A stretch of DNA of 64,000 nucleotides from Acidovorax sp. NB1 (GTDB lineage Bacteria; Pseudomonadota; Gammaproteobacteria; Burkholderiales; Burkholderiaceae_C), in the NCBI RefSeq assembly GCF_005405905.1, contig NZ_BJHU01000003.1, positions 1-64,000 of the forward strand, read 5' to 3'. Of this stretch, positions 4,301 through 29,094 are shown piece after piece. The translations under genes were made by a program, and so were the position numbers. Every line of letters begins with the position of its first letter. The first letter of the stretch is position 1. Under the pieces are notes generated by a model. That model did not search any database. It saw nothing but the letters and a program-made list of their open reading frames with translations, and was not told where the DNA came from.

Positions 4301-5515
4301 CTACAGATCCTGCGCCACCGGCGCCAGCTGCCCCAGCATGAAGGTGATGAACGGTGGCACACATGGCAGGTGCCCGGCGGGCTGAGCGCGGCAGTCGGTC
4401 AGGCTGACCAGGTCGCCTGCGCCCCGATCCTGCATGGCGCGGACCGTGGCGGCGGAGCTGGCATAGGGCACCGTGCGGTCGTCGCGACCGTGGTACAGGC
4501 GCACGGGCAGCTGGGGCTTCCAGTCGTAGACGTTGCTGATCTCCTCCAGGGCGCGCACATCGTCCGCCAAAAAACGGTCGATGAAGTGCGTGTCATAGGC
4601 CACGTCGGCATCGCCCGGAATGAGTGCGCGCAGCAGCAGGCGGCGTACCTCGCGCTGCACGCTGCCGCCCAGGTAGCGCAGGAAGCCGGGGTTGATCAGG
4701 GCGCCAATCACCGGCTGTTCTTGCCGCACCAGGTCCACCAGCCCATCCATGGTGGCCTGCACGTTGTAGGGCCCGGCGCCGGGCACCACCATGCGCAGCT
4801 GCTGCAGGTGGGGCGAGCCGCTGGCCTGCAGCGCGCGGTGCGCGGCCATGGTCACGTAGCCGCCTTCCGAGTAGCCCGTGAGGAAAAGCTGCCCGTTGTC
4901 CGCTACACCGGTCTGGTTGCGCCAGGTGCGGGCAGCGGTCAGAAAATCGACCGTGGCGGCTGCCGATGGGCCTGCCAGCAGGTAGGGGTGGGGCGTGCCC
5001 TTGGAGGCACCAAAGCCCACATAGTCGGGCGCGAGCACGATGTAGCCCAGCGAGGCCAGCACCACGGCCACTTCCGACGCCACGGCGTTGTTGCCAGGGG
5101 CCTCGGCATCTTTGAAGAGGGTGCCGTGCTGGTAGCTCAGCACCGGGCTTTTGGCGCCTGCAGCCTTGATGGGCACGCTCACCAGGCCCGAGGCGCGCAC
5201 CTCGCGGCCATCGGCATCGGCGGTGAGGTATTCGAGCCGGTAGGAGGTGACGCCGTAGCGCGGCACCACGTCCTGGGCCAGCGACTCCTTGGCGGCAAGG
5301 GCGGCCGCGATCTCGCTGGCCGGGATGGCCCCGAGCAGGCGGGCGGACTCCAGCCGCCCCGAGCGCTCGGGCAGGATGGGCGGCACGGTGGGCGAGCCCC
5401 CATCGGCCGGGGTGCTGCTACCGCCCCCGCAGCCCGCAAGCCCCAACGCCAGGCACGCCCCCAGCGCGGCGGCGCACACACGGCGGTTGCCCGCCAGCTT
5501 CCCCACAATCCACAT
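4301..5515 (-). CDS. Secreted lipoprotein alpha/beta hydrolase (lipase/esterase-like)
   Basis: This is a predicted periplasmic or outer-membrane-anchored serine hydrolase of 404 residues. ATG 5515 gives a signal peptide II (MWIVGKLAGNRRV...) with lipobox LGLAGC, Cys29. A longer open frame to 5638 runs into a dispersed repeat and is not credible. The nucleophile elbow is GYSEGGY (Ser216). The likely acid is Asp345/346 in HGRDDRTVP and the likely His is His382 in AGHLPCVPP. Family knowledge suggests secretory-lipase or tannase-like esterases, but the substrate cannot be named. It is convergent with mutS across a 36-bp gap containing a weak AGCGG/CCGCT hairpin. Confidence 0.85.
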   Translation of the reverse strand: MWIVGKLAGNRRVCAAALGACLALGLAGCGGGSSTPADGGSPTVPPILPERSGRLESARLLGAIPASEIAAALAAKESLAQDVVPRYGVTSYRLEYLTADADGREVRASGLVSVPIKAAGAKSPVLSYQHGTLFKDAEAPGNNAVASEVAVVLASLGYIVLAPDYVGFGASKGTPHPYLLAGPSAAATVDFLTAARTWRNQTGVADNGQLFLTGYSEGGYVTMAAHRALQASGSPHLQQLRMVVPGAGPYNVQATMDGLVDLVRQEQPVIGALINPGFLRYLGGSVQREVRRLLLRALIPGDADVAYDTHFIDRFLADDVRALEEISNVYDWKPQLPVRLYHGRDDRTVPYASSAATVRAMQDRGAGDLVSLTDCRAQPAGHLPCVPPFITFMLGQLAPVAQDL

Positions 5516-5596
5516 GGTCCACCCCACCAGAAAGTCCAGCGCCGGATGATAGGGCGGCGGGCCCCAACGCGCCGGAGCGGCGCGGTTTGGCCCCTG

Positions 5597-5657
5597 AATC
5601 ATGGCCAAAATTGCCGTCACCGCGCGACCATCAAGCAAAGTTTGCTATCAAATTAAT
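5597..5657 (-). repeat. Dispersed ~60-bp repeat, copy 2
   Basis: Read on the minus strand it is ATAGCA, 13 bases, GGTCGCGCG, containing GCTTGATGG like copies 1 and 5. It lies between the lipoprotein hydrolase and the Anbu gene, upstream of both starts, and is flanked by AT-rich sequence (CAAATTAATAAC). It may supply promoter sequence to either neighbour, but no clear promoter was assigned. Confidence 0.6.
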
Positions 5658-5763
5658 AACAAACAAGTCTACAGCCGGGCGCGTGGCAGCCCGCCCATCA
5701 GGGGGTGAGGCACGCGCACGACTAAACTTGCGGGTTCCCCACACCACGGACCCATTCCTGTTC

Positions 5764-15169: not shown

Positions 15170-16516
15170 TCAGGACACCGCCTGCTGCGCGTAGTGCAGC
15201 CGCCCCTTGCCCGCGCGCTTGGCCGCATACATGGCCTGGTCCGCGCGGTTCATGAGGGCATCGATATCGCCCTCCATCGGGGGGTACATCGCCACGCCAA
15301 TGCTGGCGCCGATGGACAGCTCGCGCCCGTCCACGGCCATGGGCTGGTGCAGGGCCTCGATGATGCGGTGACCGATGGTGTCGATCACTTCGCGCGTGAC
15401 CTCCTGGTCCAGCATGACCAGAAACTCATCGCCCCCCAGGCGCGCCAGGGTGTCGCCCGCGCGCACCGTGCTGGCGATGCGCTGGGCCACGGTGCGCAAC
15501 ACCTCGTCCCCGGCGCGGTGGCCCTCGGCATCGTTCACGCGCTTGAAGCCATCCAGATCGATGAACAACAGCGCCACCGCCCCGGCGCTATGGCGGGCCT
15601 GCAGCAGGGACTGCTCCAGACGCCCCTGGAACGCCGCGCGGTTGAGCAGCCCGGTCAGCGAATCGTGGTTGGCCAGATAGTGCTGCTGGCGCGCAATCTG
15701 GATTTTGGCCGATACATCCTGCACCAGGGCCATGATGGAGGTCACCTGGCCGTCCTCGTCTGTCAGTGCCGAGTTGAACCACTCGCAATGCACCTCGGTC
15801 CCGTCGCCGCGCACAAAGCTGGTCTCGGCGCGGTTCTGCGATTCTTCACCCGACTGCAGGCGCGACAGGGCCAGCTGCAGGCTGTCATCCACGAAAGCCG
15901 GGTCGAGCAGATCGGTCAGCAGACGCCCCTCCAGCCCCGCCACATGCAGCCAACCCATGAGCTGCACCGCCCGCTGCGAACAGTGCAGCAGCTGCAGCTT
16001 GTGGTCCATTTCCAGCACCGCCAACGGGCTGTTTTCCATGTGGGAGGACAGCCGCTGGTTGGCGGCACGCAGCGCGTTCATGGTCACCTGCAGCTCGTGC
16101 ACATCCAGCGCCGTGGTGATGAAGCCGTCGATTTCACCCTGGCTGTTGTGCCAGGGCGTGAGACAAATGGTGCGCCACTCGTCAAAACCGTAGGGCGTGT
16201 GCAGCATGCGCTGGTACTGCACCCGCTCGCCCCGCAGCACGCGCTCCACAAAAGGCATGAAGCGGGCACAGTCCTGCTCGCCATACACCTCCACCAGCGT
16301 CTTGCCTACGAGGCGCTCCGGCGCTGTGCCAAACCAGCGCGCATATTCTTCGTTGACGTAGATCATGGCCAGGCTGCGGTCGATGACCGCCATGGTCGCT
16401 CCGGCACTGCGGGAGATCAGGTCCAGCAGCTCCGCCTTGGACCACGTTTGCTTCCGCGCGGCAGCGGAAGGCAGTGACAACTCTGGCTCGTCTTGCATCA
16501 TGCGGAGAAAGCCCAT
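15170..16516 (-). CDS. PAS-PAS-GGDEF diguanylate cyclase
   Basis: A soluble sensor cyclase of about 448 residues. The first PAS domain (MAVIDRSLAMIYVNEEYARWFG) and a second (LAVLEMDHKLQLLHCSQRA) precede a GGDEF domain with DSLTGLLNRAA, FIDLDGFKRVND and LARLGGDEF. The inhibitory RxxD site is present (RAGD, five residues before GGDEF). No transmembrane segment is seen. The start is ambiguous: GTG 16576, ATG 16516 and ATG 16501/16498 are all in frame and none has a strong ribosome site; similarity to PAS sequence starts well downstream. Convergent with the flavoprotein gene. Confidence 0.9.
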   Translation of the reverse strand: MGFLRMMQDEPELSLPSAAARKQTWSKAELLDLISRSAGATMAVIDRSLAMIYVNEEYARWFGTAPERLVGKTLVEVYGEQDCARFMPFVERVLRGERVQYQRMLHTPYGFDEWRTICLTPWHNSQGEIDGFITTALDVHELQVTMNALRAANQRLSSHMENSPLAVLEMDHKLQLLHCSQRAVQLMGWLHVAGLEGRLLTDLLDPAFVDDSLQLALSRLQSGEESQNRAETSFVRGDGTEVHCEWFNSALTDEDGQVTSIMALVQDVSAKIQIARQQHYLANHDSLTGLLNRAAFQGRLEQSLLQARHSAGAVALLFIDLDGFKRVNDAEGHRAGDEVLRTVAQRIASTVRAGDTLARLGGDEFLVMLDQEVTREVIDTIGHRIIEALHQPMAVDGRELSIGASIGVAMYPPMEGDIDALMNRADQAMYAAKRAGKGRLHYAQQAVS

Positions 16517-16674
16517 CGGGGCATGGTCATCAACAGGAAGACTACAGCCCCAGGTGGCACGCAGCCGCCGGGGCACTGACAGCGGCCTGCAACGCGCGGC
16601 AGTGGGTTGCCGCAGCTTATCACTTTCGGTAACAGTTCCGCCTGCCCCCAGAGCAGCGGGCCATGCCCGGCACC

Positions 16675-17533: not shown

Positions 17534-18358
17534 TCAATCCGCCCACTGCACCCAACCCGTCCACGCTGTCACCAAAACAACGACCCCGAACACGATGCGG
17601 TAGTACGCAAACGGCACAAAGCTGTGGGTGCTGATGTAGCGCAGCAGCCAGCGCACACACAGCCAGGCGCTGAGGAAGGAAAAGACCAGTCCCGTGAGGA
17701 ACATCGGAAGGTCCGCCATGGACAGCAGCGCCCGCTCCTTGTAGAGGCTGTACACGCCCGCGCCGATGAGCGTAGGAATGGCCAGGAAGAAGGAGAAATC
17801 GGTGGCCGCCTGCCGCGACAGGCCCAGCAGCATGCCGCCGATGATGGTGGAGCCGCTGCGGCTGGTGCCGGGGATCATTGCCAGGCACTGCACCAGGCCC
17901 ACCTTGAGCGCATCCAGCGGTGTCATTTCATCCACGCTCTGCACCCGCGTGGCGGAGGCCGGGCGGCGCTCCGCCCACAGGATGATGAAGCCCCCGATGA
18001 TGAAGGTGCTGGCCACCACCACCGGTGTGAAAAGGTGCGCCTTGATGGCCTTGCCAAACAGCAGGCCCAGCACCACGGCGGGCAGAAACCCGATGAATAC
18101 GTTGAGCGCAAACCGCTGCGCCTGGCGCTCGGTGGGCAGGGCCACCAGGGTCGAACGGATCTTCTGCCAGTACACCAGGATCACCGCAAAGATGGCGCCA
18201 GTCTGGATCGCAATGTCGAACACCTTGGCCTTGGCATCGTCGAAACCCAGCAAGGAACCCGCCAGGATCAGGTGCCCCGTGGAAGAAATCGGCAAAAACT
18301 CGGTCAGCCCCTCGACGACCCCCATGATGGCGGCCTTCACCAGCAATACAACGTCCAC
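17534..18358 (-). CDS. uppP: Undecaprenyl-diphosphatase UppP (BacA)
   Basis: Integral membrane phosphatase that converts undecaprenyl diphosphate to the monophosphate carrier for peptidoglycan and O-antigen synthesis; overproduction gives bacitracin resistance. The protein is 274 residues. The two catalytic signatures are present: [15 protein letters not shown] (residues 16-30) and [13 protein letters not shown]. Several hydrophobic helices follow. Start GTG 18358 is chosen because AAGGAG (18364-18369, minus strand) sits five bases ahead of it; the upstream in-frame TTG 18373 would place this ribosome site inside the gene. It precedes the mipA-like gene by 10 bp and diverges from the DUF2306 gene. 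Confidence 0.96.
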
Positions 18359-18363
18359 GCGCA

Positions 18364-18369
18364 CTCCTT
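18364..18369 (-). promoter_or_regulatory. Ribosome binding site deciding the uppP start
   Basis: AAGGAG on the minus strand, five bases before GTG 18358. It supports the GTG start rather than TTG 18373. Confidence 0.7.
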
Positions 18370-18487
18370 GCAAATAGGTGCGGGATTATCCGCCGGGGCG
18401 TGGCGGTGCAGCGGGCGGCATGGCTCTCTCGCAGCCGTGCAACCTGCTTTCGCCCCCCAAAACGCCGCGCAACTCACGCCGCGCCCG

Positions 18488-18517
18488 TGCATTTCGCGGC
18501 CCGGCGGCTGCATTTCG
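18488..18517 (+). promoter_or_regulatory. Candidate LytTR regulator site: direct repeat of TGCATTTCG
   Basis: Two identical 9-mers TGCATTTCG at 18488-18496 and 18509-18517, 21 bp (two helical turns) apart. As 10-mers they read TGCATTTCGC-N11-TGCATTTCGT. LytTR response regulators bind paired direct repeats on one DNA face; the E. coli YpdB motif I recall is GGCATTTCAT-N11-GGCATTTCAC, the same core and spacing. The site lies 71 bp upstream of ATG 18589, the first gene of the run ending in a LytTR regulator at 23589-24449. Direct evidence is the repeat; function is inference. Confidence 0.65.
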
Positions 18518-18588
18518 TCGCAACGCGCTGGCCGCTAGCGCAGGCCCCCGGCACAGTCCACCCCATCGAACGCGCCAGGAGCCCCACC

Positions 18589-18999
18589 ATGCAAATCACC
18601 CCCGTCATCGCCATCCACCTTGCCGCCGCGCTGGCAGCCGTGGCCATCGGCCCCATCGCCCTGTGGGCCCGCCGGGGTGCCACGCAGCGCCCCCGCCTGC
18701 ACCGTGCGGCCGGGTATGCCTGGGTCACCCTGATGGTGGCCACTGCCGTGTCCGCCATCTTCATCACCGGCGGCCCTGGCCCACGCTGGGGCAGTTTTGG
18801 GCTGATCCACCTGCTGATCCCGGTCACGCTGGGCATGCTGGTGATGGCCTTTGTCTACCTGGCCCGCCGCAACATCGTCGGCCACCGCAAGACCATGCAG
18901 CAGATCTACATCGGTGCCTGCGTGGTGGCCGGTGGTTTCACCCTGCTGCCCGATCGCTTCCTGGGCCACTCGCTGTGGTCTGCACTGGGCGTGATCTGA
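18589..18999 (+). CDS. DUF2306-type small membrane protein
   Basis: A 136-residue inner-membrane protein with about four hydrophobic helices and the pattern RPRLHRAAGYAW, followed by conserved His in RRNIVGHRKTMQQIY, typical of DUF2306. No enzymatic role is known to me. Start ATG 18589 has AGGAG nearby (CCAGGAGCCCCACC). It is the first gene of the (+) run ending in the LytS/LytTR pair, with a candidate regulator site upstream. Confidence 0.8.
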   Translation: MQITPVIAIHLAAALAAVAIGPIALWARRGATQRPRLHRAAGYAWVTLMVATAVSAIFITGGPGPRWGSFGLIHLLIPVTLGMLVMAFVYLARRNIVGHRKTMQQIYIGACVVAGGFTLLPDRFLGHSLWSALGVI

Positions 19000-19035
19000 C
19001 CCCTCCTTCAACCCCTTATCTCTTCAGGACACCCC

Positions 19036-19617
19036 ATGCTTGCCAACCTGCTGATCCAACAACCCCAGATGCTGGGCGCCATCATCCAAAACACCCCGTA
19101 CTGGGTCTGGGCACTGCTCGCCGGCCTGCTGGCGCTGGGAGCCAGCCAGCTGATGGACCGCCACGTTGGCCTGACGCGGGCCCTGGCCATGCCGCTGGCC
19201 ATGACGGGCCTGTCGGTCTACGGCCTGGTGTCTGCCTTTGGCGGCGCAGGCCAGGCAGGCACTGCGATAGCTGCCTGGCTCGCGGCGGCTGGCGCCATCA
19301 CCGGGCTGGCGCTGTGGCTTCAGCCTGCAGCCCCCAGCGGCACGCTGTACGCCGCCAGCTCGCGCAGCTTCTTCATTCCGGGCAGTGCCATGCCCCTGGC
19401 GTTGATCCTCGGCATCTTCCTGACCAAGTACTTCGTGGGCGTGGAGCTGGCCTTGCAGCCCGCGCTGGCCCGCGACGGCAGCTTTGCCCTGCAGATTGCC
19501 GTGCTGTACGGCGTCTTCAACGGCCTGTTTGCTGCCCGGGCGCTGCGCCTGTGGAGCCTGGTTCGCCGCAGCGCCGCCTTCGTCACCACACCGGCGGCTT
19601 CGTCTGCATCGGCCTGA
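19036..19617 (+). CDS. Membrane protein of unknown function (DUF6622-like)
   Basis: A 193-residue inner-membrane protein with about five to six helices (YWVWALLAGLLALGASQLM, LALILGIFLTKYFVGVEL). It resembles proteins I recall as DUF6622; the family name is from memory. No catalytic motif is visible. It lies 36 bp after the DUF2306 gene in the putative LytTR-controlled run. Confidence 0.75.
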   Translation: MLANLLIQQPQMLGAIIQNTPYWVWALLAGLLALGASQLMDRHVGLTRALAMPLAMTGLSVYGLVSAFGGAGQAGTAIAAWLAAAGAITGLALWLQPAAPSGTLYAASSRSFFIPGSAMPLALILGIFLTKYFVGVELALQPALARDGSFALQIAVLYGVFNGLFAARALRLWSLVRRSAAFVTTPAASSASA

Positions 19618-19661
19618 ATCGCCCCGTCGCCGCCCCCCAACACTCACGAAAGCCCCCTGCC

Positions 19662-19955
19662 ATGTCACACCACCACCTGATCACCGACCCTCTGGAACGC
19701 CTGGCCCGCCGCCGTGCTGGAGCCAAGCTGGGCTGGTACCTCCATGCCGGGGTCTACCTGTTCGTCAACCTGCTGCTGGCCGTGCTGTCGATGAGCAGCG
19801 GGCACCACTGGGCCGTGTTCCCCGCCGTGGGCTGGGGCATCGGCCTGGCCATCCACGGTGTGGTGGTGTTTGTGCTGGCAGGCAGCAGCGGCCTGCACGA
19901 ACGCATGGTGCAGGCCGAGCGCGACCGCGTGGCGCAGCAAGGCCCACGCTCCTAA
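19662..19955 (+). CDS. 2TM-domain membrane protein, copy 1
   Basis: A 97-residue protein with the 2TM fold: an N-terminal basic segment LARRRAGAKLGWYLHAGVYL, two transmembrane helices, and a charged tail HERMVQAERDRVAQ. From family knowledge, 2TM domains often occur fused to or beside histidine kinases. A paralogue at 22211 shares ARRR-AKLGWYLHA, GWG-GL, H-and the L(H/R)ERMVQ-ER tail, and overlaps the kinase gene. Role unknown; an accessory sensor role is inference. Confidence 0.85.
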   Translation: MSHHHLITDPLERLARRRAGAKLGWYLHAGVYLFVNLLLAVLSMSSGHHWAVFPAVGWGIGLAIHGVVVFVLAGSSGLHERMVQAERDRVAQQGPRS

Positions 19956-19997
19956 AAAAGCGCTCCGTACAGCCCCAGCTTACGCAAAAGGAACCCC

Positions 19998-21053
19998 ATG
20001 AAGCTGCTCCAGCGCCTGACCCTCGCCCTGCTGACCCTGGGCGCCGCCGCCACCTGCCAGGCGGGCACTGGCCTGATGGAGTTGCCCGGTTTGCCAGGAG
20101 ACGGCCCCGTCACCGTGTTCTACCCTAGCAGCGGGGCGGACGCGCCCGTGCAGCGGGGCCCCTTCCAGCTGCAGCTGGCCTGGCAGGCGCCCCCCGTGCA
20201 GGGCAATGGCCGCCTTGTGGTCATCACCCACGGCTCGGGCGGCAACCCGTGGGTGCACACCGACCTGGCACGCGCGATGGTGGCAGCGGGCTTTGTCGTT
20301 GCGCTGCCCGAACACGCAGGGGACAACTCCCGGGACCCGTCCACGCCCGGCCCCGAGAGCTGGAAGCGCCGCCCTGCCGAGGTCTCCCGCGCCATCGATG
20401 CCGTGGCCCGGGACACCCGCCTGGCCCCGCTGCTCGCACTGGACAAGGTGGGCGTCTTTGGCGGCTCCGCCGGTGGCCACACCGCGCTGACGCTGGCAGG
20501 CGGCGCCTGGTCGCCCACGCGCTTTCGCCAGCACTGCGAGGCCCACATTGCCGATGACTTTTCCTCCTGCGTCGGCTTCATCACACGCCTGCATGGCAAC
20601 CTGCTGGATGGCCTGAAAAAATGGCTGGCACTGGCCGTGATACGCCACCGCTTCAACGACGACACCGCCTACACGCACGAGGACCCGCGCATCCAGGCCG
20701 CCGTGGCCAGCGTGCCTTTTGCGGCCGACTTCGATATGGCCACCCTTGCCCACCCACGCATCGCACTCGGGCTGGTCACGGCGGGGCTGGATGTAAACCA
20801 GGTGCCACAGTTTCACAGCAGCGCCGTGCTCGCCGCCTGCCAGGACCGCTGCACCCATGTGGCCCACTTGCCGGGCGCCAGCCATGGCGCCATGCTGTCG
20901 CCCATGCCACCGCTGCACCTGCTCAACGACGTGCAGACCGCGCTGCTGGGCGACCCGCCCGGCTTTGACCGCAAGGTGCTGCCCGAAGTGGACGCGCGCA
21001 TCGCGGACTTCTTTGCCCAGCACCTGCAGCCGCTACCAGCCCCCCAGCGCTGA
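19998..21053 (+). CDS. Exported alpha/beta hydrolase (dienelactone-hydrolase-like)
   Basis: A 351-residue predicted periplasmic hydrolase. A signal peptide ends near TCQAG (about residue 22). HGSGG-type oxyanion sequence (VITHGSGGNPW), the nucleophile elbow GVFGGSAGGHT, and a late GASHGAMLSP with the likely catalytic His are visible. The sequence resembles PAF-acetylhydrolase/dienelactone-type enzymes. It is 42 bp after the 2TM gene. Substrate unknown. Confidence 0.8.
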   Translation: MKLLQRLTLALLTLGAAATCQAGTGLMELPGLPGDGPVTVFYPSSGADAPVQRGPFQLQLAWQAPPVQGNGRLVVITHGSGGNPWVHTDLARAMVAAGFVVALPEHAGDNSRDPSTPGPESWKRRPAEVSRAIDAVARDTRLAPLLALDKVGVFGGSAGGHTALTLAGGAWSPTRFRQHCEAHIADDFSSCVGFITRLHGNLLDGLKKWLALAVIRHRFNDDTAYTHEDPRIQAAVASVPFAADFDMATLAHPRIALGLVTAGLDVNQVPQFHSSAVLAACQDRCTHVAHLPGASHGAMLSPMPPLHLLNDVQTALLGDPPGFDRKVLPEVDARIADFFAQHLQPLPAPQR

Positions 21054-21131
21054 ACCGCCAGCAGGTGGCGCCCTGGCCACCATCCACCGTATGCTCCCCA
21101 TCACCACGGCCAGCCAGGTCCGCCCGCCTCC

Positions 21132-22151
21132 ATGACACCCACCCGCACACCCCAGCACCACCGCCGTTACACCATGTTGATCGCAGCCCTCCTCCTGACC
21201 GCCGCCATCGCTGGGCTTGCCGCCGCCATTGCCTGGGGCGGCCCCAAAGACATCCCGCCGCTGGCCAGCATCAACAACCCGTTCAAGGATGTGGACTACA
21301 GCAATGTGCCTCCGGCCCAGCGCTACACGGCACGCGATGGCACATCGCTCGCCTGGCACGGCTACAGCCCTGCGGGGGGCACAGGGGGCACGGATGCCTC
21401 GGCAAGCGCCCCCTTGCGCCGGGTGGTGCTGGTGCACGGGTCTTCCGCACGGGGACAGTCCAACCATGTGCTGGCACAGGCGCTGGCGGCTGCAGGTTAC
21501 GCCGTGGCCTCCTTGGACATGCGGGGGCATGGCGAGTCCGGCCCCCGGGGCCAGGCCGCCTATATCGGACAGATGGAAGACGACATCGAGGACTTTTTGC
21601 GCGCCGTGCCCCACGTGGGCCCGCAAACGCTGATGGGCTTTTCGGCAGGCGGCGGGTTTGCGCTGCGTTTTGCGGGCAGCGCGCGGCAGGGCCTTTTTGA
21701 CCGCTACGTGCTGCTGTCACCTTTCCTGCACCACAACGCACCTACATCGCGGCCGGACAGCGGCGGCTGGGTCTCGGTGGGCCTGCCGCGCATGATTGCC
21801 GTCACGCTGATCAACCAGGTCGGCATCACCCGGTGGAACCATTTGCCGGTGCTCAGCTACGCGCTGAACGACGTGGCCCGCGGGCTGCTCACACCCTACT
21901 ACTCCTACACCGTGGCCACCAACTTCCGCCCCCACAACGACTACCAGGCCGACATCCGCAATGCCCGGGGCACCGTCTGCATCGTGGCCGGGCAGGACGA
22001 CGAGTTGTTCTACGCCGACCGCTTTGCCGACCTGTTTGCCCAGGCAGGCAAGCCCGTGCCCGTCACCCTGGTGCCGGGCGTGAACCACATCGGGCTGACG
22101 CTGGATGCGCAGGCCGTGGCCACAGTGGCGCGGCAGGCCTGCCCTGCGTAG
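21132..22151 (+). CDS. Membrane-anchored alpha/beta hydrolase
   Basis: A 339-residue serine hydrolase with an N-terminal hydrophobic anchor (MLIAALLLTAAIAGLAAAIA). It has VVLVHGSSARGQS, SLDMRGHGESG and the nucleophile elbow MGFSAGGGFAL; the acid is in VAGQDDELFY and the His in GVNHIGLTL. This is the lysophospholipase/serine aminopeptidase-like pattern. ATG 21132 is used; ATG 21174 is an alternative. It is the second hydrolase in the run. Confidence 0.8.
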   Translation: MTPTRTPQHHRRYTMLIAALLLTAAIAGLAAAIAWGGPKDIPPLASINNPFKDVDYSNVPPAQRYTARDGTSLAWHGYSPAGGTGGTDASASAPLRRVVLVHGSSARGQSNHVLAQALAAAGYAVASLDMRGHGESGPRGQAAYIGQMEDDIEDFLRAVPHVGPQTLMGFSAGGGFALRFAGSARQGLFDRYVLLSPFLHHNAPTSRPDSGGWVSVGLPRMIAVTLINQVGITRWNHLPVLSYALNDVARGLLTPYYSYTVATNFRPHNDYQADIRNARGTVCIVAGQDDELFYADRFADLFAQAGKPVPVTLVPGVNHIGLTLDAQAVATVARQACPA

Positions 22152-22210
22152 CAAGCCGCCGTGCCCCCTAAAATTCTGACCACCCTGCCCCACCACGCCC
22201 CTTTGCCGCC

Positions 22211-22507
22211 ATGCCAACTCCCCTGAGCCCCGAAGAACTGGACACGCTGGCCCGCCGCCGCGCCAACGCCAAGCTGGGCTGGTACCTGCACGCGGTGGCC
22301 TTTGTGCTGGTCAACGCACTGATCTTTGCCATGTCGCGCTATGCGTTTGGCACGCGCCCCTGGTCGGTGTACCCCCTGCTGGGCTGGGGACTGGGGCTGG
22401 TGCTGCATGGCGTGTCGGTGTTTTTGCTGGGCACCGGCAGCGGCCTGCGCGAGCGCATGGTGCAGCGTGAGCGCGAGGCCCTGCAGCGCCGCCACGACCG
22501 ATCATGA
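22211..22507 (+). CDS. 2TM-domain membrane protein, copy 2
   Basis: A 98-residue paralogue of the gene at 19662, with LARRRANAKLGWYLHA, two membrane helices and the tail LRERMVQREREALQ. Its stop overlaps the kinase start (ATGA at 22504-22507), which suggests translational coupling and perhaps a physical partnership with the LytS-type kinase. Function is not established. Confidence 0.85.
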   Translation: MPTPLSPEELDTLARRRANAKLGWYLHAVAFVLVNALIFAMSRYAFGTRPWSVYPLLGWGLGLVLHGVSVFLLGTGSGLRERMVQREREALQRRHDRS

Positions 22508-23592
22508 AGCTGCGCCAAGACTTTAACGGGGTCAGCAAGCTGCGGCACTACCTGCAGGTGGTGGCCTTCACGCTGGCCGTGGCCACGCTCCAGTACGCCT
22601 TCATGCCCGACAAGCCCTACGGGCCACCGGTGGTGTATTCGGTGCTGATCGGCACCTTCACCTGGGCCATCATCGACCTGGGGCGCGAAGTGATGCCCTC
22701 TGCCGCAGAGACCGGCTGGCCGCATGGCTGGCGAGGCGTTGCGCTGGTGGTGGTGGGCATCGTCGTCGGCTACCTGGCGGGCACCTTACTGGCCGACACG
22801 CTGTGTGTGCACTACTTTCACTTCTACCCGGCGGGTGCATCGCTGTCCGGTGCAGACCAGCGCACCTCCATCCTCATCACGGCCATTGCCGGGCTGGTGG
22901 GCACGTTCTACTTCTACGCTGTCAACAAGTCGGCCTATCTGGAAGGCAAGATGGCCGAGGCGCGCATGCACGCCACCGAGGCGCGCCTGAAGCTGCTGGA
23001 AACCCAGCTCGAACCCCACATGCTGTTCAACACACTGGCCAACCTGCGCGTGCTCATCGGCACCGACCCGGCCCGCGCTCAGGACATGCTGGACCGCATG
23101 ATTGCCTACCTGCGCGCCACGCTCAGCGCATCGCGCAGCACCCAACACCCACTGGAGAACGAGTTTGACCGCCTGCGCGACTACCTGGAGCTGATGGCCG
23201 TGCGCATGGGCCCACGCCTGGCCTACACGCTGGACCTGCCCGATGCGCTGCGCGAGGTGCCTGTGCCCCCGCTGCTGCTGCAGCCCCTGGTCGAGAACGC
23301 GATCCGCCACGGGCTGGAGCCCCAGGTGGAGGGCGGGCACGTCACCGTGCGCGCCACCACGCGGCCTGGCGGCAGCGGCCCCCAGCTGGTGCTGGAAGTG
23401 ATCGACACCGGCGTGGGCCTGCCGCAGCAGCTGCCCGCCTCCGGCCCCGGGCAGAGCTTTGGCCTGGCCCAGGCGCGCGAGCGGCTGGCCACCTTGCACG
23501 GCACCGCAGGCACTCTTGAATTGATAGCTGAAAAAGTAGGTGGGACGCGCGCAAGCATCACTTTTCCCTTAAAAAATTCGCCCACACCATGA
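22504..23592 (+). CDS. LytS/YehU-type sensor histidine kinase
   Basis: A 362-residue membrane kinase: about four transmembrane helices (residues 17-145), then a His_kinase domain with phospho-acceptor His172 in LETQLEPHMLFNTLANLR and a GHKL ATPase domain with VENAIRHGLEP and GVGLPQQ. It phosphorylates the LytTR regulator encoded next door, to which it is coupled by a 4-bp overlap. The last 24 codons (TLELIAEKVGGTRAS...) come from an AT-rich patch that is in the register of the dispersed repeat, unlike the rest of the gene. No large periplasmic ligand domain is present, so the signal is probably sensed in the membrane. Confidence 0.92.
   Translation: MKLRQDFNGVSKLRHYLQVVAFTLAVATLQYAFMPDKPYGPPVVYSVLIGTFTWAIIDLGREVMPSAAETGWPHGWRGVALVVVGIVVGYLAGTLLADTLCVHYFHFYPAGASLSGADQRTSILITAIAGLVGTFYFYAVNKSAYLEGKMAEARMHATEARLKLLETQLEPHMLFNTLANLRVLIGTDPARAQDMLDRMIAYLRATLSASRSTQHPLENEFDRLRDYLELMAVRMGPRLAYTLDLPDALREVPVPPLLLQPLVENAIRHGLEPQVEGGHVTVRATTRPGGSGPQLVLEVIDTGVGLPQQLPASGPGQSFGLAQARERLATLHGTAGTLELIAEKVGGTRASITFPLKNSPTP
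23519..23580 (+). repeat. Dispersed ~60-bp repeat, copy 3 (kinase 3' end)
   Basis: ATAGCT, 13 bases, then GGACGCGCGCA: the same register as copy 5 at 59374. It forms the last codons of the kinase gene and is AT-richer than its surroundings. The middle 13 bases have diverged, so homology rests on the two outer blocks and the spacing. Confidence 0.55.
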
Positions 23593-24449
23593 CGCTGCCC
23601 GCCCCCCGTGCCCTGATTGCCGAAGACGAACCCCTGCTGGCTGCCGCCCTGCGCCAGGAGCTGGCCCGCGCCTGGCCCGCGCTGGAGATCGTGGCCACCG
23701 TGGGTGACGGGCTCTCGGCCGTGCAGCAGGCGCTGGCACTGCAGCCCGATGTGCTGTTCTTCGACATCCGCATGCCCGGCCTGAGCGGGCTGGACGCCGC
23801 CGTGGAGCTGGCCGACGCCTGGCCTGCCGACACGCCCTTCCCGGCCCTGGTGTTTGCCACGGCCTACGACCAGTACGCCGTGCAGGCCTTTGATGCCCAG
23901 GCGGTGGACTACCTGCTCAAGCCCATCGATGCCCGCCGCCTGGCGCGCACCGTGGCCAAGGTACAGGACCTGCTCGCACAGCGCCAGCCCGCCCCTGCCC
24001 CCGCAGCAGCCGTGGCGCCCCCCGCGCTGGAAGCGACCATGGCCCAATTGCGCGCACTGCTGCAAGCGCCGGGCCTGGGTGCCAGCGCAGCACCACCGCC
24101 TTTGCAGCCCGCGCAACCCGCCACGCGGCTGAGCGTGATCCAAGCCAGCCATGGCACGCAGATCCACATGGTGCCGGTGGCAGAGGTGGTGTACTTCGAG
24201 GCGGCCGACAAGTACGTGCGGGTGTTGACCACCGAGCGTGAGTACCTGATCCGCACCGCGCTCAAGGAGCTGATCGAGCAGCTCGACCCGCAGGAGTTCT
24301 GGCAGGTGCACCGCAGCACCCTGGTGCGCGCCACGGCCATTGCCACCGTCACGCGCGACGAGGCAGGCAAGCAGCACCTGAGTCTGCGCGGGCGGCCCGA
24401 GCGCCTGCCGGTGAGCCGCCTCTACGCGCACCTGTTCAAGGCGATGTAG
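23589..24449 (+). CDS. LytTR-family response regulator
   Basis: A 286-residue response regulator. The receiver domain has AEDEP, the phospho-acceptor Asp59 in LFFDIRMPG and KPIDA. An Ala/Pro-rich linker (about 125-170) leads to a LytTR DNA-binding domain (about 185-280) with VYFEAADKYVRVLT and FWQVHRSTLVR. It overlaps the kinase by 4 bp. The TGCATTTCG direct repeat at 18488-18517 upstream of the run is its most likely target. The closest known systems by architecture are YehU/YehT and YpdA/YpdB of E. coli. Confidence 0.95.
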   Translation: MTLPAPRALIAEDEPLLAAALRQELARAWPALEIVATVGDGLSAVQQALALQPDVLFFDIRMPGLSGLDAAVELADAWPADTPFPALVFATAYDQYAVQAFDAQAVDYLLKPIDARRLARTVAKVQDLLAQRQPAPAPAAAVAPPALEATMAQLRALLQAPGLGASAAPPPLQPAQPATRLSVIQASHGTQIHMVPVAEVVYFEAADKYVRVLTTEREYLIRTALKELIEQLDPQEFWQVHRSTLVRATAIATVTRDEAGKQHLSLRGRPERLPVSRLYAHLFKAM

Positions 24450-24472
24450 CTGCGCCCCTTTTCAAGCGAGCT

Positions 24473-25930
24473 TCACGCGGGCGGCAGCGCCTCCCAGCGC
24501 CCGGCCACATTCTTCAGCAGCGCATTCACCGCCGTCAGGCGGCGGCCCTTCACGTCGATCAGGCTGCGCTGCGACGACAGCACGGTGGTCTGGGCCGCGA
24601 GCACATTCAGGTAGCCCACGGTGCCCGCACGGTACTGGTTCTCCACCACGTCCAGCGCACGCTGCGCGGCGGCGGTGGCCTCGCGCTGCAGTTGCTCCTC
24701 TTGCGCCAGGGCGGCGGCGGCCGTGAGGTTGTCCTCCACCTCCTGCAGCGCGGTCAGCACCGTCTGGCGGTAGGCGGCCGTGACTTGCGCGTGGTTGGCA
24801 CGGGCTGTCTCCACCGCCGCACTGCGCGCGCCGCCGTCAAAAATCGACGCCGCCAGCGCAGGCCCCAGCGACCAGAACAGGTTGGGCGCGCTGAACAGGT
24901 CCGCGAGCGGTGCCCCCCGGTAACCCCCCGCTGCCGACAGCGTGAGCGTGGGGAAATACGCCGCGCGCGCCACGCCAATCTGCGCGTTGGCAGCCGCCAC
25001 GCGGCGCTCGGCCGCCGCAATGTCGGGCCGGCGCTGCAGCAGGTCGGACGGCAGGGCCTGGGGCACGTCCGCCGGTGCGGGCAGCGTAGCCGTGGGCTCC
25101 AGAGCAAAGGCGGCAGGCGCCTGCCCCAGCAGCGCGGCCAGCGCGTGCTCCAGCTGGGTGCGCGTGGTTTGCGCCTCCAGCAGCTGCGCCTGGGTGGACT
25201 TGTACTGCACCTCGGCCTGCGCCACATCGGCGCTGGAGGCCACACCCGCCGCCTGGCGGTTGCGCGTCAGCTCCCAGCTCTTGTTGTAGGCCTTCAGCGT
25301 TTCGGCCAGCAGGGCGCTCTGCGCCTCGGCTGCACGCAAAGAAAAATAGGTCTGCGCCACGGCGGCCTGCAGCGACAGGCGGGCAGCAGCCAGGTCGTCG
25401 GCACTGGCCTGGGCGCTGGCCTGCGCGGCGCTCACCCCGGCCGACACGCGCCCCCACAGGTCCAGTTCCCAGCTGGCAGACAGGCCCAGCGAATGGCTGG
25501 TGCTGATGCGTGCGGTGCTGCTACCGTCGGCCAACTGCGTGCCGCTGCGCGCACGGCTACTGCTGGCATTGGCCCCCACCGTGGGCAAGGCGGCTGCACC
25601 ACTGCTGGTCACGGCCGCCTGGGCCGCGCGCAGCCGGGCAGCGCTTTGCGCCAGTGTCGGGCTGTTGGCATCGGCCTGCTGTTGCAGGCGGTCCAGCACG
25701 GCGTCGCCATACGCCGTCCACCATGCCTCGGGCAAGGCCGGGGCGGTCTGCGTTTGTGCGGGCTTCCAGATGCCCTGGGCCTGGGCCGCAGCCTGTTCTT
25801 TGTAGGCCCCTGGGATGTCCATGCCCGGGCGCTCGTAGGGCGGCGTCTGTGCGCAGCCTGCCAGCCACAGGCCGCTGGCCAGCACCACCGGCCAGGCGGC
25901 GTGGCGCGAAAAAATGGTAGGAGAGGTCAT
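24473..25930 (-). CDS. RND efflux outer-membrane lipoprotein (NodT/OprM family)
   Basis: A 485-residue TolC-like outer-membrane channel. It has a lipoprotein signal (LASGLWLAGC, Cys26) followed by two OEP repeats rich in long helices (AARLRAAQAAVTSSG, AAQASAQASADDLAAARLSL). It forms the exit duct for the RND pump. The start ATG 25930 overlaps the stop of the upstream permease by 4 bp (ATGA). It is the last gene of the efflux operon and is convergent with the LytTR gene. Confidence 0.92.
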   Translation of the reverse strand: MTSPTIFSRHAAWPVVLASGLWLAGCAQTPPYERPGMDIPGAYKEQAAAQAQGIWKPAQTQTAPALPEAWWTAYGDAVLDRLQQQADANSPTLAQSAARLRAAQAAVTSSGAAALPTVGANASSSRARSGTQLADGSSTARISTSHSLGLSASWELDLWGRVSAGVSAAQASAQASADDLAAARLSLQAAVAQTYFSLRAAEAQSALLAETLKAYNKSWELTRNRQAAGVASSADVAQAEVQYKSTQAQLLEAQTTRTQLEHALAALLGQAPAAFALEPTATLPAPADVPQALPSDLLQRRPDIAAAERRVAAANAQIGVARAAYFPTLTLSAAGGYRGAPLADLFSAPNLFWSLGPALAASIFDGGARSAAVETARANHAQVTAAYRQTVLTALQEVEDNLTAAAALAQEEQLQREATAAAQRALDVVENQYRAGTVGYLNVLAAQTTVLSSQRSLIDVKGRRLTAVNALLKNVAGRWEALPPA

Positions 25931-28900
25931 CCGTCGTTTCCTTGCAATACCGCCGGGGCCACAGCTGCGGCGCCCGCTTGCTTGCGGCGCCGTCCCACGG
26001 CGCGCAGCACCCGCGCACGCAGCCGGTCCAGCGCCACATACATCACCGGCGTGGTGTAGAGCGTGAGCAGCTGGCTCACCAGCAGGCCGCCCACAATCGC
26101 AATGCCCAGCGGCTGGCGCAGCTCGGCCCCATCGCCCCGGCCCAGGGCCAGTGGCAACGCCCCAAAAATGGCAGCCACCGTGGTCATGAGGATGGGCCGC
26201 AGGCGCAGGTTGCAGGCACGGTAGATGGCCTGCGCTGCCGTAACAGGCGCCCCGCCCTGCTGGCGCTGCCGTGTGAGCGCAAAGTCGATCATCAAGATCG
26301 CATTCTTTTTCACGATGCCGATCAGCAGGATCACCCCGATAAGCGCGATGAGCGAGAACTCGGTCTTGAAGAGCATCAGCGCCAGCAACGCCCCCACGCC
26401 CGCCGACGGCAGCGTGGACAAGATGGTGACCGGGTGTACCAGGCTTTCATACAACATGCCCAGCACCAGATAGATGGTGATCATGGCCGCCAGGATCAGC
26501 AGCGGCTGCCCCGCCAGCGCCGACTGGAAAGCCCCAGCCGTGCCACTGAAGGTGCCCCGCACGGCCACGGGCACGCCCAGCTCGGCCACCGCGTTGTTCA
26601 CCGCCTCGGTGGCCTGTGACAGCGAAACGCCCGGCGCCAGGCTGAAGCTGATGCTGCTGGCGGGCGTGCCCCGGTCGTGGTTGACCGACAGTGGCGTGTT
26701 GGTGGTGGTGATGCGCGCAAACGCCGTGAGCGGGATCTGTTGCCCCTGGCTGTTGACGAAGAAGAAGCCGCGCAGCGTTTCAGGGCTCTGAAGAAAGCGC
26801 GGCGCGGCCTCCATCACCACGCGGTACTGGTTGAGCGGGTTGTAGATCACCCCCACCTGGCGCTGGCCGAAGGCATTGTTGAGCGTGGAATCGATCTGCG
26901 CCATGGTCAGCCCCAGGCGCGTGACGGCATCGCGGTCGATGACCAGCGAGGTCTGCAGGCCATAGTCCTGCACGTCGCTGTTCACGTCCTCCAGTTCGGG
27001 CAGCTGGCTCAGCACCTGCCGCACACGCGGCTCCCAGGTGCGCAGGTCGCCAATCTCGTCGGCCTGCAGCGTGTAGTCGAACGATGCGCCGCTGCTTTGC
27101 CGCCCGCCAATGCGCACATCGCGCTGCGGCGACATGAACAGGCGCGCGCCCGGCTCGTTCTTGAGCTGCTCGCGCAGCCGCGCAATGACCGCATCCGAAC
27201 TCTCCTGCCCCGGCCCGCGCTTGAGGGTCATGAACAGGGCCGCAGCGTTGCGCTGCCAGCCGCCGGTGAAGCCGGTCACATGCTCCACAGCCGGGTCGGC
27301 CTGCACGATGGCCAGAAAACGCTGCAGCCGCTGCTCCATCGCCTGGTACGACGTGGCCTGGTCGGCCCGGATGAAGCCCGAGATGCGCCCGGTGTCCTGC
27401 TCGGGCATGAAGCCTTTGTCGATGGCGGTGTAGAGGTATACGTTGAGCCCCACCACACAGACCAGGGCCAGCAGGGCCACCGGCTGGTGGCGCAGGCACC
27501 AGGCCAGGCTGCGGCGGTACAGGCGCATGCCCCGCACCTGGACGCGGCCCATCCAGCGGCCCAGCCACTGGCCCACCGCCCCTCCCCAGCCCCTGCGCCG
27601 CACAGGGGCCAGATGGTGGGGCTTGAGCAGCGCCGCACACATCATGGGCGTGGTGGTGAGCGACACCACCATCGACACCAGGATGGCCGAGGACATGACG
27701 ATGGCGAACTCACGGAAGAACCGGCCCACGATGCCGCCCATGAAAAGGATAGGCACGAACACAGCAATCAGCGAGATGCTCATCGACACCACGGTGAAGC
27801 CGATCTCTCGCGCGCCGTCCAGCGACGCCCGCAGCGCGGTCTTGCCCCGCTCCATGTGGCGCATGATGTTTTCCAGCACCACAATGGCATCGTCCACCAC
27901 AAAACCCGTGGCCACCGTGAGCGCCATGAGCGAGAGGTTGTCGAGCGTGTAGCCCGCCAGGTACATCACGCCAAACGTGCCCGCCAGCGACACCGGCACC
28001 GCCACACTGGGGATGAGCGTGGCGCGCCCGTTGCGCAAGAACAGGAACACCACCAGCACCACCAGCGCCACGGCAATCAGCAGCGCGTGCTCCACCTCCT
28101 TGACCGAGGCGCGCAGCGTGGGCGTGCGGTCGGAGACGATTTCAATATCGATGGCCGCCGGGATGGAGGCCTTGAGCGCAGGCAGCAACGACCGCACCCG
28201 CTCCACGGCTTCGAGGATGTTGGCGCCCGGCTGCTTGTACACCTGCAACAGGATGGCGGGCCTGCCATTGGCCACGCCGAAGTTGCGCACGTCCTGCACC
28301 GAGTCCACCACTTCGGCCACGTCCTGCAGCCGCACGGCCTGGCCGTCCTTCCAGCGCAGCACCAGCGGCGCGTAGTCGGCCGCCACGCGGGCCTGGTCGT
28401 TGGTGGCCACCTGCCAGTAGTGGTCCTCGCGCTCCACCGCGCCCAGCGGGCGGTTGGCATTGGTGGTGACGATGGCGCTGCGCACCTGCTCCAGAGAGAT
28501 GCCGTTGGACGCGAGCCGCACCGGGTCCAGCTCCACGCGCACAGCGGGCAGCGCGCCGCCACTCACGGTGGCCTGGCCCACGCCCTCGACCTGCGAGAGC
28601 TTTTGCGCCAGCACCGTGGAGGCCGCGTCGTACATCTGCCCGCGCGTGAGCAGGTCGGACGTGAGCGCCAGGATCACGATGGGCGAATCGGCCGGGTTGA
28701 CCTTGCGGTAGGTCGGGTTGCTGGGCATGCCCGTGGGCAACAGCGTGCGAGCAGCGTTGATGGCGGCCTGCACATCGCGCGCGGCGCTGTCCACGTTGCG
28801 GTCCAGGTCGAACTGCAGCGTGATGGAGGTGCTGCCCAGGATGGAGCGCGAGGTGATTTCGGTGACACCCGCGATCGCGCCCAGCGACCGCTCCAGCGGC

Positions 28901-29094
28901 GTGGCGACGGTGGCGGCCATGGTGTCGGGGCTGGCGCCGGGGAGGCTGGCGCTGACCGAGATGGTGGGGTAGTCCACCTGCGGTAGCGGGGCCACGGGCA
29001 GCAAAAAGTACGACACCGCACCGGCCAGGGCCAGGCCCAGGGTGAGGAGCATGGTACCGATGGGGCGGTGGATGAAGGGGGTGGAGAGGCTCAT
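25927..29094 (-). CDS. RND efflux permease, MdtC-like
   Basis: A 1055-residue inner-membrane RND pump subunit. It begins MSLSTPFIHRPIGTMLLTL and shows the RND pattern of 12 helices with two large periplasmic loops. [17 protein letters not shown] in the fourth helix carries the adjacent Asp pair that drives proton coupling. Heterotrimeric MdtB/MdtC-type pumps export bile salts, novobiocin and related compounds. The gene is the third of the pump operon and is separated from the other permease by a 0.8-kb repeat block. The start has GGAGG close upstream (AAAAAAGGAGGCCCAACC), which lies at the edge of a dispersed-repeat copy. Confidence 0.95.
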   Translation of the reverse strand: MSLSTPFIHRPIGTMLLTLGLALAGAVSYFLLPVAPLPQVDYPTISVSASLPGASPDTMAATVATPLERSLGAIAGVTEITSRSILGSTSITLQFDLDRNVDSAARDVQAAINAARTLLPTGMPSNPTYRKVNPADSPIVILALTSDLLTRGQMYDAASTVLAQKLSQVEGVGQATVSGGALPAVRVELDPVRLASNGISLEQVRSAIVTTNANRPLGAVEREDHYWQVATNDQARVAADYAPLVLRWKDGQAVRLQDVAEVVDSVQDVRNFGVANGRPAILLQVYKQPGANILEAVERVRSLLPALKASIPAAIDIEIVSDRTPTLRASVKEVEHALLIAVALVVLVVFLFLRNGRATLIPSVAVPVSLAGTFGVMYLAGYTLDNLSLMALTVATGFVVDDAIVVLENIMRHMERGKTALRASLDGAREIGFTVVSMSISLIAVFVPILFMGGIVGRFFREFAIVMSSAILVSMVVSLTTTPMMCAALLKPHHLAPVRRRGWGGAVGQWLGRWMGRVQVRGMRLYRRSLAWCLRHQPVALLALVCVVGLNVYLYTAIDKGFMPEQDTGRISGFIRADQATSYQAMEQRLQRFLAIVQADPAVEHVTGFTGGWQRNAAALFMTLKRGPGQESSDAVIARLREQLKNEPGARLFMSPQRDVRIGGRQSSGASFDYTLQADEIGDLRTWEPRVRQVLSQLPELEDVNSDVQDYGLQTSLVIDRDAVTRLGLTMAQIDSTLNNAFGQRQVGVIYNPLNQYRVVMEAAPRFLQSPETLRGFFFVNSQGQQIPLTAFARITTTNTPLSVNHDRGTPASSISFSLAPGVSLSQATEAVNNAVAELGVPVAVRGTFSGTAGAFQSALAGQPLLILAAMITIYLVLGMLYESLVHPVTILSTLPSAGVGALLALMLFKTEFSLIALIGVILLIGIVKKNAILMIDFALTRQRQQGGAPVTAAQAIYRACNLRLRPILMTTVAAIFGALPLALGRGDGAELRQPLGIAIVGGLLVSQLLTLYTTPVMYVALDRLRARVLRAVGRRRKQAGAAAVAPAVLQGNDG

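Follow-up and report, generated by a model that had tools for sequence, protein, structure and literature searches.

The window analysed here, a 64,000-nucleotide stretch from Acidovorax sp. NB1, carries eight open reading frames at 18589–24449, all on the forward strand. The first two encode membrane proteins of the DUF2306 (18589–18999; PF10067, 67.3 bits) and DUF6622 (19036–19617; PF20327, 196 bits) families. These are followed by a 2TM protein (19662–19955; PF13239), the alpha/beta hydrolases HydA (19998–21053) and HydB (21132–22151; S33 type, PF12146) and a second 2TM protein (22211–22507; PF13239) beside the kinase gene. The last two genes encode a LytS-type membrane histidine kinase (22504–23592; PF06580 and PF02518) and a LytTR response regulator (23589–24449; PF00072 and PF04397), the proposed binder of the promoter element described below. 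With all four domains above cut-off and in adjacent genes, the pair is a LytS/LytTR two-component system. Taking the first 2TM gene from the ATG at 19662, the genes are separated by gaps of 36, 44, 42, 78 and 59 nt and then by two 4-nt overlaps. A preliminary description of this DNA had listed eight same-strand genes with short gaps and with LytS and LytTR at the end, and both the reading frames and the Pfam domains agree with it.

HydA has no Pfam match, and its class was assigned from the names of its relatives, several of which are called dienelactone hydrolase in the databases, and from a fold comparison of its AlphaFold model (mean pLDDT 90.5). The fold comparison gave 897 matches at E ≤ 0.001, which indicate the general class only; the 50 listed PDB matches include Lp-PLA2/PAF acetylhydrolase, PETase/cutinase and feruloyl esterase, at 12–16% identity and query TM scores of 0.43–0.60. 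A sequence search of the PDB with HydA returned no match. The N-terminus of HydA reads like a signal peptide, and its hydropathy profile has no segment above the threshold; HydB has one N-terminal hydrophobic segment by hydropathy. In the kinase, hydrophobic segments precede both domains, and a Pfam search with E values up to 0.001 found no domain besides His_kinase and HATPase_c. The nearest named relatives are from Acidovorax; the closest LytTR match among those listed, which may omit the window's own record, is 90% identical (Acidovorax sp. GW101-3H11).

The divergent gap between uppP and DUF2306 holds two perfect copies of TGCATTTCG, which start at 18488 and 18509, a period of 21 bp; in this respect the sequence confirms what had been described. 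The pattern TGCATTTC-N13-TGCATTTC, with up to 3 mismatches allowed, has a single match in the window, at 0 mismatches, against a chance mean of 0.38 and at least one match in 31 of 100 shuffles. A genome-wide search for this pair, as the preliminary description had proposed, returned it as the sole pair at 0 mismatches in 5.49 Mb, the runner-up having 1 mismatch. Allowing as many as 3 mismatches gives 47 matches in the genome (29 + 18), compared with 8 (6 + 2) for the backward control. The degenerate bare repeat is not rare in this genome, while the perfect pair is.

For comparison with relatives we used a strict pattern of 48 nt, running from half-site B (see below) to the −10-like block, with up to 3 mismatches and with the backward pattern as a control. 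The strict site was present in 87 of 99 stretches, and the 77 sites left once near-duplicates had been removed formed the training set of the matrices. Thirty-eight stretches from relatives surround a LytTR match, and 29 of these are orthologue-centred loci of the same genus. Together with the window the same genus thus provides 30 loci; upstream regions were aligned for 28, L049 (contig end) and L066 (rearranged) being omitted. Judged from this conservation, the repeat is two of three predicted half-sites that lie in phase inside a larger promoter. Half-site A (TGCATTTCGCGGC, 18488–18500, +) and the most conserved one, half-site B (TGCATTTCGTCGCA, 18509–18522, +), are the two copies recognised earlier and are supported by both sequence and alignment. 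Half-site 0 (GCAACTCACGCC, 18469–18480, +) is a degenerate form 20 bp upstream of A, detected by aligned conservation and by an A-type matrix. The longer form of the half-site is GCATTTCRCGCC and that of the proximal one, B, is GCATTTCGTCGCA; the consensus of A over the 77 non-redundant sites is GCATTTCRCGcC. At these sites, the A-derived matrix averages +3.2 when set 20 bp upstream of A; the mean falls to −3.5 if it is set at 21 bp, and other offsets tried gave −6 to −12. In 42 of the 77 loci, 20 bp is the best offset for half-site 0. Being 20 and 21 bp apart, the three half-sites would thus lie on one face of the DNA. The A–B period is 20 bp at four loci (L054, L062, L063 and L067) and likewise at some sites before the HydA2 gene discussed below. 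Information content over the 77 sites peaks in five places: half-site 0, A, B (GCATTTCGTCGCA), a TGGC block six nt beyond B, and the GGCACAGT block. Columns inside the strict pattern owe part of their conservation to the use of this pattern in finding the sites, while half-sites 0 and A lie outside it. LytTR-type operators are defined as direct repeats of about 9 bp that are 10–13 bp apart and mostly lie upstream of the −35 region (PMC11347149 and PMC4847170, both cited throughout from the parts available), and the element agrees with this definition.

Downstream of B, a −35-like CTGGCC (18528–18533, +) begins after 5 bp, its TGGC being conserved at a fixed distance, and a −10-like CACAGT (18552–18557, +), part of a conserved GCACAGT block, follows after an 18-nt spacer. 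Both boxes, whose promoter function is putative, agree with their consensus at 3 of 6 positions. Our guess for the transcript start is near 18565, and a ribosome-binding-like AGGAG is found in the sequence at 18577–18581 (+). A scan of 18300–24600 for consensus sigma-70 promoters gave no site, and the 4 terminator-like sites in the same interval, compared with 2.5 expected, are unconvincing. With hexamers matching at three positions each and no consensus sigma-70 site, this therefore looks like an activator-dependent promoter. The preliminary description had noticed neither the third half-site nor the core promoter, nor the second genomic target described below.

Within the same genus, 40 of 47 genomes carry the 48-nt element, whereas the control matched none of the 47; across the family, it is present in 111 of 399 genomes, representing 60 of 141 genera (control, 3 of 399). 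Such strict-pattern counts understate its presence, and the matrix counts that follow hang on the chosen threshold (score > 0). When same-genus loci are chosen by their LytTR gene, 28 of 30 carry a site above this threshold at a distance of under 300 nt upstream of the first operon gene, most of these sites having helped to train the matrix. The loci without a site are L049 and L066, and the genome of the latter (G030) has one before hydB elsewhere (L117). Of 80 named loci, likewise chosen by LytTR and representing the best 80 of 538 relatives, 67 have the site at this position. The preliminary description had named absence of the repeat upstream of orthologous operons as the observation that would speak against it, and both counts point the other way. 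When training sites are excluded, 48 of 61 of the loci from these best 80 relatives retain a site at score > 0 and 37 of 61 pass the strictest null threshold of 22.4. The opposite-strand null maximum was −10.7 over 32 stretches and 22.4 over 80, the higher value being due to two matches (L249 and L287) that look like real divergent sites. Opposite-strand copies of the element, some of them weak, are seen near the LytTR loci L249, L287 and L253 and are perhaps the promoters of other targets. The misses among the best 80 number 13: by our reading, the contigs of seven end inside the operon, and L249, L255, L268, L288, L290 and L297 have no site before the operon though the sequence is present.

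The composition of the operon varies behind the site, which stays in place at a locus without DUF2306 (L041) and at one where only 2TM–LytS–LytTR make up the operon (L064). At the 67 site-bearing loci among the 80 best relatives, the first gene after the site is DUF2306 in 29, DUF6622 in 19, 2TM in 12, LytS in six and hydA in one. The strict pattern is absent from 57 of the 96 family genomes with a LytTR match (E ≤ 1e-30, paralogues included). Twenty of these 57 were sampled, and in 17 a diverged site lies before the operon, less than 300 nt upstream; all 17 exceed the null maximum of that comparison (−10.7) and 16 score above 0. In the others, L200 and L217 have no site and the match in L208 is 4.9 kb away. 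Forty loci were also chosen by the site itself, hand-picked from the family matches and mostly from different genera. An operon gene follows within 300 nt in 33 and a LytTR homologue lies downstream in 32, while seven have other genes nearby and no recognised operon gene. At one site-chosen locus (L181, G180), the element precedes a reading frame that by eye resembles an exported alpha/beta hydrolase. Four genomes from other families of the order, represented by eight stretches, gave matches at L068, L072, L074 and L075 with scores of 17–29, of which only that in L068 stands immediately in front of the operon, at 128 bp from 2TM; the occurrence of the element in those families is suggestive at most.

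The presence of the element follows that of the operon's LytTR regulator. With orthology assigned by similarity searches, the strict element was found in 29 of 30 same-genus genomes with a LytTR orthologue, compared with one of six without (36 genomes covered by both the LytTR and the element search; Fisher 9e-5). The exception with an orthologue, G035, has a weaker site (L054, score 30.4); in the exception without one, G019, the operon start lies on a partly read contig (L125), read to the second gene. Three of the five same-genus genomes that lack both are only 72–82% complete. Across 146 genomes of the family, the element is present in 39 of 96 with a LytTR match and in two of 50 without (Fisher 6e-7), where 30 of the 50 LytTR-negative genomes were assigned as the remainder and the contingency tables were tallied by hand. 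The element occurs without a LytTR match in G110 (74% complete) and G120 (93%), and incompleteness may explain the former more than the latter. These comparative genomics data support the earlier proposal that the repeat is a regulatory element of this operon.

The same preliminary description suggested a self-contained operon, a view that is not supported because the same predicted promoter stands before HydA2, a second hydrolase and paralogue of HydA, on another contig and before distal genes in relatives. In this genome, the HydA2 orthologue (71%) lies at G000:C40:167683-168780 on contig 40, with the site between the stop of the preceding reading frame and the HydA2 start. Searched with a relaxed pattern of 21 positions and a tolerance of 3 mismatches, the genome gave just two matches, both at 0 mismatches and with none for the control: the promoter in the window and that of HydA2. 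All 25 HydA2 orthologues considered (27 at E ≤ 1e-140, with G031 and G069 left out), that of this genome among them, have the site, five by the strict pattern and 20 of 20 among fetched stretches. A lone HydA2, 31–33% identical to HydA, follows the promoter in relatives L112–L116, and a lone HydB does so in L117. In L107–L111 the promoter precedes a pair formed by DUF2141 and an RPE65-type carotenoid oxygenase; Pfam was run on one member of each, and RPE65 was found in all five genomes. In other genera, the same pair lies inside the LytTR operon (L174, L192, L270 and L284), as do DUF2141 alone in L211 and a HydA2-like gene in L178. As these genes are inside the operon in some genomes and distal in others, they seem to enter and leave it while keeping the promoter. 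Close RPE65 orthologues have the site in six of six genomes (five by the strict pattern, G029 with a weaker site). A distant RPE65 paralogue has it in four of nine examined genomes and lacks it in five of nine, this genome included (G069 left out). The N-terminus of the relatives' oxygenase reads as Tat-like. At one locus (L205, G148), two element matches occur in a single cluster, one before hydA and a weaker one before DUF2306.

The YpdAB and BtsSR kinases carry additional LytS-type sensor domains (5TM receptor, GAF), whereas no sensor domain of the 5TM receptor or GAF type was found in the window kinase (Pfam, E up to 0.001). The window regulator also falls below the BtsR family cut-off (NF008677, 134.1 bits versus 246). 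In LytTR regulatory systems (LRS), small membrane proteins are co-encoded with the LytTR protein. These systems, which have a membrane inhibitor, are named in PMC11347149; the small membrane proteins beside LytTR are alike, but the present operon has a full two-component pair. The YpdB site consists of GGCATTTCAT, 11 nt and GGCATTTCAT, with a period of 21 (PMC4847170). Thus, the earlier label of a YpdB-like repeat holds for the core and the spacing: E. coli YpdA/YpdB (PyrS/PyrR in NC_000913.3), with its yhjX site, shares the LytS/LytTR pair, the GCATTTC core and the 21-bp period. It does not hold beyond this, since there are three longer half-sites that resemble those of AlgR and RcoM, and the regulator is only 27% identical to YpdB. 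Here, moreover, the site is carried by the operon itself and the kinase has only His_kinase and HATPase domains. RcoM1 and CoxC, one-component CO sensors, are LytTR regulators with three direct repeats (PMC11347149). The likeness lies in the presence of three direct repeats spaced by roughly two helical turns, here 20 bp for 0–A and 21 bp for A–B with half-site 0 degenerate, and in the half-sites: TTCNNGCA/TTNNNGCN of RcoM1/CoxC resemble TTCRCGCC of 0 and A, which fit TTCNNGC, while B has an extra base (TTCGTCGCA). Unlike RcoM and CoxC, which have a gas-sensing domain of their own, the window protein combines a receiver with LytTR and is paired with a kinase, and the targets are unrelated. We found no description of this operon or promoter, nor of the system's spread and targets, in the open-licence papers searched.

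Our best reading is a LytS/LytTR regulon that comprises envelope proteins and ester hydrolases and is under positive autoregulation; the regulator very probably turns on both the operon that encodes it and a hydrolase gene located elsewhere. We are fairly confident that the eight-gene operon has its operator and core promoter at 18469–18557 and that it activates itself through them. In this model, the adjacent LytS kinase would phosphorylate the operon's own LytTR regulator, which would then bind the tandem half-sites 0, A and B directly upstream of the weak −35/−10 pair. The bound regulator would recruit RNA polymerase, giving positive autoregulation; it would also activate HydA2 on contig 40 and, in relatives, the DUF2141–carotenoid oxygenase pair, HydB and other hydrolases. 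The sequences show the element with its conservation and fixed geometry, its independence of the genes around it, its co-occurrence with this LytTR and its distal copies. We infer the binding, the control by phosphorylation, activation rather than repression and the function, a response to the envelope or to a hydrophobic ester that LytS would sense with a 2TM partner, the direction of control being read solely from geometry. Direct repeats are the usual binding sites of LytTR regulators, which mostly act from upstream of −35 and as activators (PMC11347149; PMC4847170); as B ends 5 nt before a poor −35-like box that is followed by a poor −10, positive autoregulation is proposed. Given its hydrophobic segments and the lack of another Pfam domain, the kinase may detect its signal inside the membrane or at its surface, possibly together with the adjacent 2TM protein. 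The predicted outputs point to the envelope: the membrane proteins, HydA with its signal-like N-terminus, HydB with its hydrophobic segment and the Tat-like oxygenase. For the signal, a hydrophobic ester or lipid is our guess.

The regulator that acts on this element could be another one. Two more LytTR proteins are encoded in this genome, namely a response regulator on contig 13 (C13) beside a His_kinase gene and a C25 protein without a receiver, and the former, being AlgR-like, might be the main binder while the operon's own regulator has its targets elsewhere. The C13 regulator and kinase form a pair that we take to be AlgZR-like by its arrangement. The AlgR half-site of Pseudomonas aeruginosa AlgZ/AlgR, CCGTTCGTC, resembles variants of the element (PMC4064291, from the part available): the window half-sites, checked against it, read CATTTCGTC and CATTTCGCG, and the variant GCCGTTCGTCGCA in relative L183 includes the AlgR core. 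AlgR sites are, however, scattered and some lie far upstream (PMC4064291), and the AlgR-like pair found here is encoded at another locus. An AlgR-like regulator, 83–95% identical, is present in all six same-genus genomes without the LytTR orthologue, yet five of the six lack the element, so that this regulator does not explain where the element occurs. No such site was found in the stretches around the C13 and C25 LytTR genes, and the element follows the operon's LytTR; we therefore regard binding mainly by another LytTR protein as improbable.

Somewhat less remote, though still unlikely, is a reversed sign of control, in which the operon's LytTR represses the promoter as CoxC does and a signal relieves the repression. 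CoxC represses through three direct repeats 18–21 bp apart, but its repeats overlap the −35 region, whereas here the −35-like box begins only after half-site B has ended, a layout shared with RcoM1 and the majority of LytTR activators (PMC11347149). The poor core promoter, with 3 of 6 positions in each hexamer and no consensus site, also suits activation. The position of the repeat in the uppP/DUF2306 gap would allow it to serve the divergent uppP (undecaprenyl-diphosphatase) or both directions. This is very unlikely, because uppP is not seen beside the site at 15 of 28 same-genus loci and at 32 of the 67 site-bearing loci among the 80 best relatives (some stretches, L263 for one, start too near the site to judge), and the −35/−10-like boxes are oriented toward the operon; control of uppP is thus disfavoured, as the site is kept where that gene is not seen. 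Finally, there is hardly any chance that the repeat is an accident or a general GC-rich motif: the degenerate form with up to 3 mismatches does occur at 46 other places in the genome, but the full element shows conservation, fixed geometry and near-empty backward controls (0 of 47 and 3 of 399), on which the general-repeat reading was rejected. Activation by the operon's own LytTR regulator remains the preferred reading.

A mechanism of this kind is known, since three-repeat LytTR operators have been described; its widespread member is new. For a LytTR protein matched in 96 of 146 family genomes, the analysis yields a precise operator together with a regulon predicted to have two units here, and it places DUF2306, DUF6622, 2TM and DUF2141 in the same control circuit as ester hydrolases. 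If a LytTR response regulator does use three in-phase half-sites, this would broaden the arrangement reported in the CoxC paper for one-component CO sensors (PMC11347149). A wider picture, offered tentatively as possible rather than probable, is that of an undescribed Comamonadaceae/Burkholderiales regulon in which LytS and 2TM sense the envelope state or a hydrophobic ester. Through a three-half-site operator, which would be unusual for a response regulator, LytTR might then deploy exported PAF-acetylhydrolase/cutinase-like esterases, the DUF2306, DUF6622 and 2TM proteins and an exported carotenoid oxygenase.

Several minor observations concern the surroundings of the operon and its regulators. 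The C25 LytTR protein (L330:2375-3409), which has no receiver, has a hydrophobic-looking N-terminal half and recalls membrane-fused LytTR regulators of the CoxC kind. At 15170–16576 (−) of the window lies a gene for a PAS-GGDEF diguanylate cyclase-like protein (by eye), and at 24473–29094 (−) outer-membrane factor-like and RND pump-like genes (by eye) converge on the operon end; the outer-membrane-factor-like gene still adjoins the operon in several relatives. In locus L123 (G070), at about 5160–5690 reversed, the promoter is followed after about 130 nt by a 133-residue reading frame that corresponds to the DNA-binding part of LytTR only. The other operon genes were not found there between uppP and the outer-membrane-factor-like gene, and a transporter-like reading frame takes their place.
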